From assembly GCA_017622175.1 (NCBI GenBank), contig JAGARQ010000046.1:1-49647 (forward strand): a stretch of 49,647 nt of DNA, read 5' to 3'. Positions 5,177-10,234 of the stretch are shown in pieces (within the stretch, counting starts at the first letter, position 1; each line of letters starts with the position of its first letter). The translations under genes were made by a program, and so were the position numbers. The notes beneath the pieces were generated by a model, which had not been told where the DNA came from, ran no database searches, and was given only the letters and a program-made list of their open reading frames with translations. This stretch comes from Bacilli bacterium. GTDB taxonomy: Bacteria; Bacillota_I; Bacilli_A; RF39; UBA660.

Positions 5177-6817
5177 TCATATATTGTTTTTTAATCGAAA
5201 AATTTCTTCATCAATTCTTGATTTATCATATCTTTCATATAATGGTTTTATTTCTTTACTTATTTCTATATTATTTACTTTTGTATAGTTCCAATTTTTT
5301 GTTTTTTTATTTAAATATTCTTCTACTTTTTCACATGAAAATGGTAAATATGGTTTAAGGAGTATGTTTACATTTAAAATAATATTTACACAATTTAATA
5401 ATACTTTGTTGCATTCATCTATATTTTCTTTTGCTAATTTCCAAGGTTCTTTTTCATCAAAATACTTATTTGCATAACTGATAAAATCAAATATTTTAAT
5501 TAGTCCTTCTTTAACATTACCATTATCGATATCTTCACCTACTGTTTCAAATAATCTTTTAAGTTTATATTCTACTTCTTGATCAATTTCTGAATTTAAA
5601 AGTTTTCCATCAAATGATTTATTTATAAATACTAAAGTTCTATTAATAAAGTTACCCCATTTACCTAAAAGTTCTCCATTAATTGAATTAATAAAATCAT
5701 TCCATGTAAAGTTAAAATCTCTTTTTGATGGATCGTTATATAGGAAATAATATCTTACTGCATCAGCTGGATATCTTTCTAAAATGTCTTTTACCGAGAT
5801 ATAGTTTCCTTTACTTTTTGATAGTTTTTCTCCTTCTATTGTTATATATTCATCTGAAACGATTTTGTCTGGTAATTTATAGTTATCTTTAGTTGCAAGT
5901 AATAGTGATGGGAATATTACTGTGTGAAATGGAATATTATCCTTTGCATGAACTAGATATATTTTGTTTTCTTTTTCATTTTTCCAAAAATCTTCCCAAT
6001 TTAAATTATGTTCTTCACAATATTTTTTAGATGCTGTTACATATCCCCAAACATTTTCAAACCATCCATAAATCTTTTTATCTTCATAATCTTTTATTGG
6101 AATATCAATTCCCCAATTTAGACTACGTGATGCGCATCTGTCTGGTATTCCTTCTTTAATATATCGTTCAGTAAAAAGTATGGCGTTTTCTCGCCAAGTA
6201 AGTTTATTTTTTGAAACTAAGTCTTTTATATTATCTTGGAATCTTGAAAGTGAAAAGTATAAATTTTTAGTTTCTTTAATACTAGTTTTATTTCCACATA
6301 TTGCACATTTAGTTTCTTTCACATCTTTAATTTCTAAAAGACTACCACATTTTTCACATTCATCACCTTTTATGTCTGAACCACATTTTGGACACACTCC
6401 TACAATATAACGATCTGCTAAAAACAAATTACAATGTTCACAAAATAATTGTTCTTCTTTTTGTTCGTAAAGATAACCATAATCATAATATTTTTTAAAT
6501 TGTTCCTTTACAAAGTCTTTATGATATTCATCATCAGTTCGGTTATAAAGGTCAAAACTTACTCCTAGATTTTTCCAGTCTCTCGTAAAATTTTCGTGAC
6601 AAAGGTCGACTATTTCTTTGGCACTTTTTTTCTCTTGCAATGCTTTAACATCAATTGGAGTGCCATGGCAATCACTCCCTGATACTAATATTACATTGTT
6701 TCCTTTTAATCGATGATATCTTGCGATAACATCTCCTGGCAAACTACTTGCTGCATGGCCTATATGCAAATCTCCATTTGCAAATGGCCAAGATATTCCT
6801 ATTAATATATTCTTCAT
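5177..6817 (-). CDS. metG: Methionyl-tRNA synthetase
   Basis: It charges tRNA-Met with methionine in the cytoplasm. The HIGH signature is NGDLHIGHAA (about residues 14-23) and the KMSKS loop is EGEKLSKSKGN (about 329). Between them are four Cys pairs (CEHC, CPKC, CEKC and CAIC, about residues 126-175), the double zinc-knuckle connective domain. The anticodon-binding helical domain follows. At 546 aa it lacks the C-terminal EMAP-type tRNA-binding domain of longer enzymes. AAGGAAGG precedes the ATG. Expression is controlled by the upstream T-box leader with an ATG specifier. Confidence 0.95.
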   Translation of the reverse strand: MKNILIGISWPFANGDLHIGHAASSLPGDVIARYHRLKGNNVILVSGSDCHGTPIDVKALQEKKSAKEIVDLCHENFTRDWKNLGVSFDLYNRTDDEYHKDFVKEQFKKYYDYGYLYEQKEEQLFCEHCNLFLADRYIVGVCPKCGSDIKGDECEKCGSLLEIKDVKETKCAICGNKTSIKETKNLYFSLSRFQDNIKDLVSKNKLTWRENAILFTERYIKEGIPDRCASRSLNWGIDIPIKDYEDKKIYGWFENVWGYVTASKKYCEEHNLNWEDFWKNEKENKIYLVHAKDNIPFHTVIFPSLLLATKDNYKLPDKIVSDEYITIEGEKLSKSKGNYISVKDILERYPADAVRYYFLYNDPSKRDFNFTWNDFINSINGELLGKWGNFINRTLVFINKSFDGKLLNSEIDQEVEYKLKRLFETVGEDIDNGNVKEGLIKIFDFISYANKYFDEKEPWKLAKENIDECNKVLLNCVNIILNVNILLKPYLPFSCEKVEEYLNKKTKNWNYTKVNNIEISKEIKPLYERYDKSRIDEEIFRLKNNI

Positions 6818-6841: not shown

Positions 6842-7122
6842 AAAAAACCTCTTAGGAAAATAATCCTAAGAGGTGAATATATATCACGCTACCACTCTTA
6901 TTTAATAGTGCATTACTGTACTAAACTCGCTAACCTACTTATGTCTTACGCATAGTTATAGGCTTGTGCTGTAACAGGCACACCTGTAATAACTTACTAT
7001 AGTTTCAGTCATTCACCCTTGAGGGCCATGTTCGAAAAGTCATTACATCCTCTTTTTCACCTAACAGAGTTCTCTAAAATGCTTTTACTCTTCTACTTCT
7101 TCCTCGCACTGGTTTTGTGATG
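6842..7122 (-). ncRNA. T-box leader, Met specifier, upstream of metG
   Basis: The T-box sequence reads AGAGTGGTAGCGTG (6884-6898), whose TGGT pairs with the ACCA end of tRNA-Met (discriminator A). The specifier is ATG at 7043..7041 within GTAATGAC. The terminator is a perfect 10-bp stem, CCTCTTAGGA (6848-6857) with TCCTAAGAGG, followed by six T on the minus strand. Uncharged tRNA-Met should stabilise the antiterminator and raise metG transcription. Confidence 0.88.
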
Positions 7123-8626: not shown

Positions 8627-8655
8627 ATCATACAATATTATTTATATTTATTCAA
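8627..8655 (-). promoter_or_regulatory. Promoter for the pyrH leader
   Basis: TTGAAT (8655..8650) and TATGAT (8632..8627) have a 17-base spacer. The -35 overlaps the last codons of tyrS. Transcription would start near 8620, placing the leader ORF ribosome site at the very 5' end of the RNA. Confidence 0.55.
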
Positions 8656-9886
8656 ATATAACTTTTAAAAATACTTTTTTACCTTTTTGAATAATTATAA
8701 AGTTTTCTGTTAAATTGTTGTTTGTTATTAAATCATTAACACTATTTACTTTTATTTGATTTATACTTATACCATTTTGTTCTATTAATCTTCTTGCTTC
8801 AGATTTAGATGTTACTAAGTTTGTTTCTACTAATAAGTCGACTATATTAATATCTAATTTTTCTTTAGGTAAAGTTATTGTTGGCATGTTATCAGAGATA
8901 CCTTTATTACTAAATAGTTCTTCAGAAGTTTTTCTGGCTTTGATTGCTTCTTCTTCACCATGAACTAATTTTGTTACTTCAAAAGCTAGAAGTTTTTTTG
9001 CTTCTCTAATATCTTTTTTGCAAAGTTCTTTTATATCTTCTATTTCCATTCTTGTGAAGAAAGATAAACTTCTTTCAACATCTTCATCAAATGAATTCAT
9101 CCATGCTTGGAAAAATTCAAATGTAGATGTTTTATCTCTAGATACCCATAATGTACCTGTTGCTGTTTTACCCATTTTTTCTCCATCTGCTTTTATTAGT
9201 AATGGACATACTAAACCAAATAATGGGTCTATTTTTTTACCTTCACTAAATCCTATTTTTCTTGATAAATCTACTCCTGCAATTATATTACCCCATTGGT
9301 CTGAACCACCTATTTGTAATTTACAATCAAATTCTTTATTTAAGTGAACAAAGTCAAATGCTTGCATTAACATGTAGCCCATTTCTAGGAATGTTAATCC
9401 ACCATTTTCTAGACGTTTTTTGTAACAATCTGCTTGAAGCATATTGTTGACATTAAAGTGTACTCCAATATCTCTCATAAAGTCTATGTAATTCTTATCA
9501 GAAATCCAATCTGCATTATCTACGATAATTGCAGGATTATCTCCATCTGTTTTTACAAAACGTTTTACTAATTCTTTTACTTCAGCTTTATTATGAGCAA
9601 CTTCTTCTTTTGATAGCATTTTTCTCATATCACTTTTTCCAGTTGGGTCACCTATTAAGGCTGTTGCTCCTCCAACTAAGACAATACCTTTGTGTCCAAA
9701 ATCTTGTAACCATCTAAACATTGTTAAGGCAAAGAAATGACCAATATGTAGACTATCTGCAGTTGGGTCTATTCCTAGGTAAAATGTAAATGGTTCTCCA
9801 TTCAATAAATCAATAATTTCTTGTTCGTGTGTTAAATCTTTTATGTATCCTCTTTCTTTGAGAATATCAAATAATTTCTTTTTCAT
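8648..9886 (-). CDS. tyrS: Tyrosyl-tRNA synthetase
   Basis: It charges tRNA-Tyr. The HIGH motif is DPTADSLHIGHFFA (about residues 39-52), the KMSKS loop is KADGEKMGKTATG (about 229-241), the tyrosine and tRNA pocket includes QIGGSDQWGNI (about 190), and a C-terminal S4 RNA-binding domain starts near residue 345 (VDLLVETNLVTSKSEARRLI). The length of 412 aa is typical of bacterial TyrS. AGGAGG precedes the ATG at 9886. The gene is downstream of a Tyr T-box and of a separate Tyr-rich ORF that overlaps its first codons in another frame. Confidence 0.96.
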   Translation of the reverse strand: MKKKLFDILKERGYIKDLTHEQEIIDLLNGEPFTFYLGIDPTADSLHIGHFFALTMFRWLQDFGHKGIVLVGGATALIGDPTGKSDMRKMLSKEEVAHNKAEVKELVKRFVKTDGDNPAIIVDNADWISDKNYIDFMRDIGVHFNVNNMLQADCYKKRLENGGLTFLEMGYMLMQAFDFVHLNKEFDCKLQIGGSDQWGNIIAGVDLSRKIGFSEGKKIDPLFGLVCPLLIKADGEKMGKTATGTLWVSRDKTSTFEFFQAWMNSFDEDVERSLSFFTRMEIEDIKELCKKDIREAKKLLAFEVTKLVHGEEEAIKARKTSEELFSNKGISDNMPTITLPKEKLDINIVDLLVETNLVTSKSEARRLIEQNGISINQIKVNSVNDLITNNNLTENFIIIQKGKKVFLKVIFE

Positions 9887-9965
9887 TTTTATTTCCTCCT
9901 AAATAATTTGTATAGTTAATTAAATTACAATCATCAAAGTAATAATAGTAATAGTCACTATCCAT
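9867..9965 (-). CDS. Tyr-rich leader ORF overlapping tyrS, 32 aa
   Basis: AAAGGAGGTGA precedes ATG at 9965. The peptide starts MDSDYYYYYFDDC, with five consecutive Tyr codons (TAT TAC TAT TAT TAC, 9953..9939) and seven Tyr in 32 residues. It runs through the tyrS ribosome site in another frame and stops (TGA 9869..9867) 17 bases inside tyrS. It lies after the T-box terminator, so it is made only on read-through. Ribosomes finishing it would cover the tyrS start. Ribosomes stalled for lack of Tyr-tRNA would stop about 40 bases upstream and leave the start free. The ORF is seen; the mechanism is inferred. Confidence 0.7.
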   Translation of the reverse strand: MDSDYYYYYFDDCNLINYTNYLGGNKNEKEII

Positions 9966-9983
9966 ACAAATCACCTCCTTTGA

Positions 9984-10199
9984 AAATAAAAAGAGCACTT
10001 CATCCAAAAGGACGAAATGCTCGTGGTACCACCTTTATTTGTAATAATAGTTTATTACCTTGTTTTGATAACGGACTTCTCCGATTAAAATCATCACTTG
10101 TAATTCATTATTTTATTTTTGTTTGTTTCCACCTAACCACAAACTCTCTATAAAAAATTATAAAATAATTACTTTGAATGAGTCATCTTTTAATTAACT
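9984..10199 (-). ncRNA. T-box leader, Tyr specifier, upstream of tyrS
   Basis: The T-box sequence GGTGGTACCACGAGC is at 10034..10020, and its TGGT matches a tRNA ending ACCA. The specifier TAC is at 10102..10100 in GAATTACAAG. The terminator is a 13-bp stem, GAGCACTTCATCC (9993-10005) with GGACGAAATGCTC (10010-10022), plus a T-rich minus-strand tail. Uncharged tRNA-Tyr should promote antitermination. Confidence 0.9.
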
Positions 10200-10205
10200 G
10201 GCCTA

Positions 10206-10234
10206 ATTATAACATAAGATGGTTATTTTTGCAA
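10206..10234 (-). promoter_or_regulatory. Promoter for the tyrS T-box
   Basis: TTGCAA (10234..10229) and TATAAT (10211..10206) have a 17-base spacer. The start would be near 10199, just before the T-box stem I region. Confidence 0.65.

Follow-up and report, generated by a model that had tools for sequence, protein, structure and literature searches.

The second tyrosyl-tRNA synthetase gene of this genome, tyrS2, lies behind a Tyr T-box and a short, Tyr-rich leader open reading frame (ORF). It is probably under two-tier control by Tyr-tRNA, in which the T-box would act first and the leader would then serve as a translational attenuator. Judged from sequence comparisons, the Tyr leader is real, conserved, and regulatory in design. 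These comparisons document the T-box, the ORF, its Tyr codons, the potential of the leader RNA to form a hairpin, and the persistence of the leader across gene replacement. T-boxes are usually presented as making a single decision; at this locus, one tRNA signal is apparently read twice on the same mRNA, first by the T-box and then by a translating ribosome.

Architecture of the tyrS2 locus

All elements of the locus are on the minus strand of the window, the whole 49,647-nt stretch of DNA that was analyzed. A sigma-70-type promoter (TTGCAA-17 nt-TATAAT; 10206..10234) can be read from the sequence, its -10 and -35 positions are alignable across related loci, and transcription is predicted to start near 10199. 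The Tyr T-box leader RNA that follows (10005..10195; Rfam RF00230) scores 99 bits with the covariance model, for which the curated cut-off is 93. Its specifier codon, read from the sequence, is UAC (10102-10100), cognate to the downstream TyrRS gene, and is followed by the antiterminator GGTGGTACC and by a terminator hairpin with its U-tract (GAGCA...TGCTC and then a T-run; 9986..10022), which ends upstream of the leader ORF.

The leader ORF (9867..9965), identified by translation and conservation, consists of 32 codons, MDSDYYYYYFDDCNLINYTNYLGGNKNEKEII, and then a stop. It is preceded by the extended Shine-Dalgarno sequence AAAGGAGGTGAT (9970..9981), which is the extended complement of the 16S rRNA 3' end. 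Seven of its codons specify Tyr, including five consecutive ones at codons 5 to 9 (9939..9953), and the ORF reaches out of frame into tyrS2, with an overlap of 20 nt counting the stop codon (9886-9867). The original prediction had described the ORF and its ribosome site after the T-box terminator, the number and run of Tyr codons, and the reach into tyrS, and was right on each.

tyrS2 (8648..9886) encodes a 412-aa tyrosyl-tRNA synthetase (PF00579 and TIGR00234; 414 bits against the latter). Its Shine-Dalgarno sequence, AGGAGG (9895..9900), is predicted to lie largely inside the internal loop of a leader hairpin of ∼105 nt (9887..9991). The other tyrS gene of the genome, tyrS1, is found on contig C60, is 44% identical, and has its own Tyr T-box with no leader (L004). 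An Rfam scan of 9850-10005 returned nothing above threshold, and the stretch from the Tyr codons to the start of tyrS contains no terminator (hairpin plus U-run).

Second synthetase copies are clustered here, as metS (5177-6817, minus strand) lies in the same 5-kb stretch as tyrS2; T-box positions indicate the same order in genome G002. This metS is preceded by a T-box at 6866-7118 (minus strand; 91 bits, just below the cut-off), and another T-box metS occurs elsewhere in the genome (L005). Upstream of the UMP kinase gene pyrH (8510-7806), we also noted a short ORF (8604-8559, minus strand) that encodes MKKTNISIQTISFIF and has a good ribosome site. Its end is pyrimidine rich (CTATCTCTTTTATTTTC) and complementary to its ribosome site, and a terminator-like hairpin with a T-run comes right after the stop codon. 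The ORF is also present in L048 and looks like a pyrBI-type attenuator.

Conservation and distribution of the cognate leaders

Tyr makes up 4.9% of the 15,036 residues encoded by large ORFs of the window, which contain no run of five Tyr, and a chance origin of the leader ORF is ruled out by its conservation in related loci. The titles of these loci refer to metagenome-assembled genomes of uncultured Bacilli, Tenericutes, and Firmicutes, several of them from animal gut. The start context AGGAGGTG is invariant in 23 distinct sequences, and the AUG and extended Shine-Dalgarno sequence of the leader are kept at nearly all loci. Within the leader core, we found only three length differences (L068, L140, and L142), each of 3 nt, and L140 keeps YYY despite a synonymous change.

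The original prediction proposed aligning related upstream regions to see whether the Tyr codons and the overlap are kept. For the Tyr codons, the answer was positive: the leader is present in 23/23 tyrS2 loci at 80-98% identity, each with at least three Tyr among codons 4 to 9. More distant tyrS2 genes (e.g., L071 and L073-L079) have the T-box and lack the leader. For the overlap it was not, and we rejected the out-of-frame overlap as the conserved trait because its length varies, with the leader ending between -6 and +46 relative to the gene start (+8 to +34 in most loci, -6 in L050). The leader end is placed such that a ribosome completing it would cover the ribosome site of the gene.

The proximity of the leader end to the gene start in most loci, together with the strong leader ribosome site, would also suit translational coupling. 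Here, leader ribosomes would unfold the tyrS site and reinitiate, the Tyr codons would slow or tune this process, and scarce Tyr-tRNA would lower tyrS expression. We consider such coupling highly unlikely, given that the gene has a good Shine-Dalgarno sequence of its own and that the sign of the effect would oppose that of the T-box. A fixed reinitiation distance also fits poorly with leader ends as far as +46 and with the two loci in which the leader frame is continuous with the gene. In these loci (L072 and L080; 66-69% TyrS identity), only ATGGATAGTGA-TAT-(TAT or GAC)-TAT is left of the leader and its frame continues into tyrS; therefore, run-through would still give an N-extended TyrRS.

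A pattern search of 386 family genomes also recovered the leader behind a T-box, and a covariance model placed it in 12 of the 386, representing 11 of 150 genera. No match was found among class-level genomes outside the family. Viral contigs, phages, and plasmids likewise gave no leader match, and on that basis we rejected a phage or plasmid origin. We also rejected the rule that every T-box gene in these genomes carries a cognate leader: in this genome and ten relatives, most other T-box genes have no leader ORF, and the few other leader ORFs behind the relatives' T-boxes are not rich in the cognate residue. Among short ORFs seen at other T-boxes, that of L016 (G000 contig C47) has 47 aa, lies between the T-box and proS, and overlaps proS, with a strong internal hairpin and two Pro codons only. 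Others, behind Thr-type and serS T-boxes (L014, L263, L015, L260, and L267), are conserved only within the genus; the Thr-type ORF begins MTKKESETKYS.. and has two ACC codons, and the serS ORF reads MKKF[SC]FNNLI..KVSC.

The leader is not confined to tyrS2. In G016, G234, and G339, the T-box end and the leader precede a different TyrRS that is 31-33% identical to tyrS2 (the replacing TyrRS of G016 matches TIGR00234), and the leader again runs into this newer gene, ending at +34, +28, and +8, respectively. In G421, a remnant resembles the start of tyrS2, and the next gene encodes DAHP synthase. These arrangements indicate that the leader module outlives its tyrS2 gene. At one such locus (L201; G234 contig C101), the leader and the antiterminator half of the T-box correspond to those of the tyrS2 module, and the T-box 5' half is unrelated, which suggests recombination within a T-box.

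A counterpart for Trp was found in G000, G001, and G002: between the Trp T-box and trpB stands a leader, M(N/K)EYDWNWRKPY..., which reaches into trpB in another frame and whose ribosome site and start pair over 11 bp with trpB codons. Upstream of the trpB of G172 (74% identical; L292, contig C6), a genome that belongs to another genus, no T-box motif was recognized; this region instead encodes a leader peptide, MNYLNINKLNNWWNVWKSWSIQVLS, with a terminator-like hairpin behind it, and next comes an overlapping leader, MESDWNWKR.... This arrangement is an apparent trp-type attenuator in place of the T-box. The Trp leader is kept behind both, so the second leader remains with either type of transcriptional sensor in front of it. 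An exact DNA pattern for the DWNW leader matched only this genome among 296 class-level genomes, a search that may miss diverged copies.

The predicted hairpin and models of control

Among 21 loci, synonymous differences affect 1.8% of leader codons 2 to 18 compared with 33% in tyrS, where even the lowest 17-codon window reaches 18.6%. Nonsynonymous differences amount to 10.4% in the leader, against a tyrS median of 7.8%. The constraint on the leader thus appears to act mainly at the nucleotide (RNA) level. The same figures (1.8% synonymous versus 10.4% nonsynonymous) disfavor pure peptide constraint, such as that on an arrest peptide, and selection on peptide or codons is hard to prove because nonsynonymous changes in the leader outnumber synonymous ones.

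The conserved block extends from the leader ribosome site to ACAAA, where it ends abruptly, and the predicted hairpin joins this block with the U-tract of the terminator and the spacer at the tyrS start. In the predicted fold, an outer stem pairs the U-tract with GAAAUAAAAA (9991-9982 with 9896-9887), a middle stem pairs the leader ribosome site and start with CUAUACAAAUUAUUU (9976-9957 with 9920-9901), and an inner stem pairs the Tyr codons with the FDDCN codons (9952-9940 with 9936-9924). Both Shine-Dalgarno sequences fall in the internal loop, and that of tyrS is closed off by the stem over the start spacer. Folding energies have z scores of -2.7 to -7.7 relative to shuffled sequences, and 95.7% of cells are paired in the hairpin, compared with 36-56% when the pairing is slid (23 distinct but related sequences). 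The covariation score is 0.134 versus 0.112 in shuffles (0/500 as good), and both sides have changed in 16 cells (1/500 shuffles), although the relatedness of the 23 sequences limits both results as proof. Double changes are almost wholly in the outer stem, mostly as a shifted A-U step, and variation in the middle and inner stems consists mainly of G-U changes. By inspection, one inner pair reads AUUAC/GUAAU, with AUUGC/GUAAU in its place at several loci and AUUGC/GCAAU at L140.

This RNA-level constraint raises the possibility that the hairpin alone reduces tyrS translation or sets its timing, or else shields the mRNA, with the ORF translated little or never and the Tyr codons following from the sequence of the hairpin arm. 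The excess of nonsynonymous over synonymous change is consistent with such an element, as is the AUA in place of AUG at the leader start of L070 (where tyrS2 is kept) and of G421, which adds a Watson-Crick pair to the hairpin. We nevertheless regard an element of RNA alone as unlikely. It does not account for the invariant extended Shine-Dalgarno sequence, the AUG in nearly all loci, the restriction of indels to 3 nt, or the YYY retained in L140, and it would require two coincidences, the location of the Tyr run after a Tyr T-box and that of DWNW after a Trp T-box.

A further pairing involves the T-box itself. Leader codons 8 to 18 are complementary to the opening ∼33 nt of the transcript, whose predicted 5' end, AGTTAATTAAA, is strongly conserved, and this duplex excludes the local hairpin. 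After antitermination, pairing of these codons with the 5' strand of Stem I could undo both the T-box and the leader hairpin in the full-length mRNA. The duplex has an energy of -18 to -29 kcal/mol and z scores of -3.3 to -7.5 in 25 loci (mean of 0.1 and minimum of -2.7 in 83 other T-box loci as a control), and it is nearly isoenergetic with the local hairpin in full-length folds. Against these values stand strands that do not covary (1276/5000 permutations were as good), the absence of the pairing in L072 and L080, and its loss in G234, where the T-box has a different 5' half and the leader and hairpin are kept. We give such a switch little probability and rejected the pairing as the main explanation, its strong complementarity notwithstanding, on the grounds that it lacks covariation and is lost in G234; it represents either a leftover of shared sequence or an additional switch. 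A related and quite improbable idea is that the T-box remains active after antitermination, with the choice of the Stem I 5' strand between the T-box, stabilized by uncharged tRNA, and leader codons 8 to 18 setting the closure of the hairpin over the tyrS site. If true, one T-box would gate both transcription and translation, and the Tyr leader would be an additional, ribosome-borne sensor.

The combination of T-box and translational attenuator, which we favor, would operate as follows. T-boxes let transcription pass their terminator when bound by uncharged tRNA, and uncharged tRNA-Tyr would do so here. The leader RNA would then fold, with its ribosome site and start held in a stem and the tyrS Shine-Dalgarno sequence kept in the loop, closed by the stem over the tyrS start spacer. 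This sequestration is partial in our model, with an opening cost of about 6.7 kcal/mol. Ribosomes that load on the leader would proceed into the Tyr codons that make up the 5' arm of the inner stem. When Tyr-tRNA is scarce, they would stall there, keeping the 5' arm melted and letting tyrS initiate. Initiation during the stall should be possible because the Tyr run ends 33-42 nt before the ribosome site of the gene (22/22 loci measured), leaving room for a second ribosome. Forbidding pairs across the stalled ribosome lowered the mean modeled opening cost from 6.7 to 3.2-3.9 kcal/mol; with such pairs allowed, the cost was lower for a stall at Tyr5 but not at Tyr7 or Tyr9. When Tyr-tRNA is ample, ribosomes would cross the run, cover the tyrS site, and finish translation inside or close to the tyrS start, and the RNA would fold back into the hairpin. 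That the leader is translated, that ribosomes stall on it, and which way tyrS output then moves are inferences. T-box, Tyr run, and Tyr enzyme coincide at one locus, and the sign of the proposed leader effect would agree with that of the T-box.

The reading that fits best is a cognate-codon leader with an effect on translation, because the leader is conserved, is kept before replaced TyrRS genes, and has a parallel in the Trp leader. The original prediction of a second, translation-level Tyr sensor accordingly draws support from the conserved ORF and Tyr codons, their reach over the tyrS site, and the Trp parallel, and is weakened by the AUA starts, the in-frame leaders, and the more distant tyrS2 genes whose T-box has no leader behind it. 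Its proposed mechanism, occlusion of the tyrS site alone, is incomplete in that it leaves out the conserved hairpin holding both ribosome sites and the selection acting mainly at the nucleotide level. Variants that occur naturally, with an AUA start, an in-frame leader, a swapped gene, or a swapped T-box half, could serve to tell apart what leader translation, the hairpin, and the T-box each contribute. The survival of the synthetase-gene leader through gene replacement, and the persistence of its Trp counterpart behind a trp-type attenuator, suggest a recurrent and modular use of a second, translational check among these uncultured gut Bacilli.

Comparison with known systems

The closest likeness is to the Bacillus subtilis rtpA (anti-TRAP) operon, where a T-box is likewise followed, right before the gene, by a small leader ORF containing consecutive cognate codons. 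There, a Trp-specific T-box controls transcription and the leader peptide RtpLP, with three Trp codons, controls translation; complete translation of RtpLP prevents that of RtpA (PMC2311275). This control has elsewhere been described as tRNA-dependent ribosome stalling (PMC11255114; PMC4027176). Unlike rtpA, the locus described here responds to Tyr rather than Trp in its predicted design, and the gene controlled encodes a synthetase (trpB in the Trp version) rather than a regulator. The leader is also longer and usually overlaps the gene start; it lies, together with both ribosome sites, in a large, conserved, predicted hairpin.

As in the translational attenuators of ermC/ermB and cat, the leader ORF lies in a predicted hairpin that masks the ribosome site of the gene and that a stalled ribosome is expected to open. 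Unlike in those systems, the signal would be a missing aminoacyl-tRNA rather than a ribosome-bound drug, and a T-box precedes the leader. A short leader ORF whose run of cognate codons makes up one arm of a hairpin recalls trpL-type attenuation, but no terminator separates the leader from tyrS; the sole terminator belongs to the T-box and precedes the ORF. We found no report of a T-box with a cognate leader at a synthetase gene in the literature searched, which was mostly open access. The combination of T-box and leader peptide has so far been proven in only one Bacillus operon, and the locus is best read as the rtpA/RtpLP logic, itself not new, applied to a synthetase gene.
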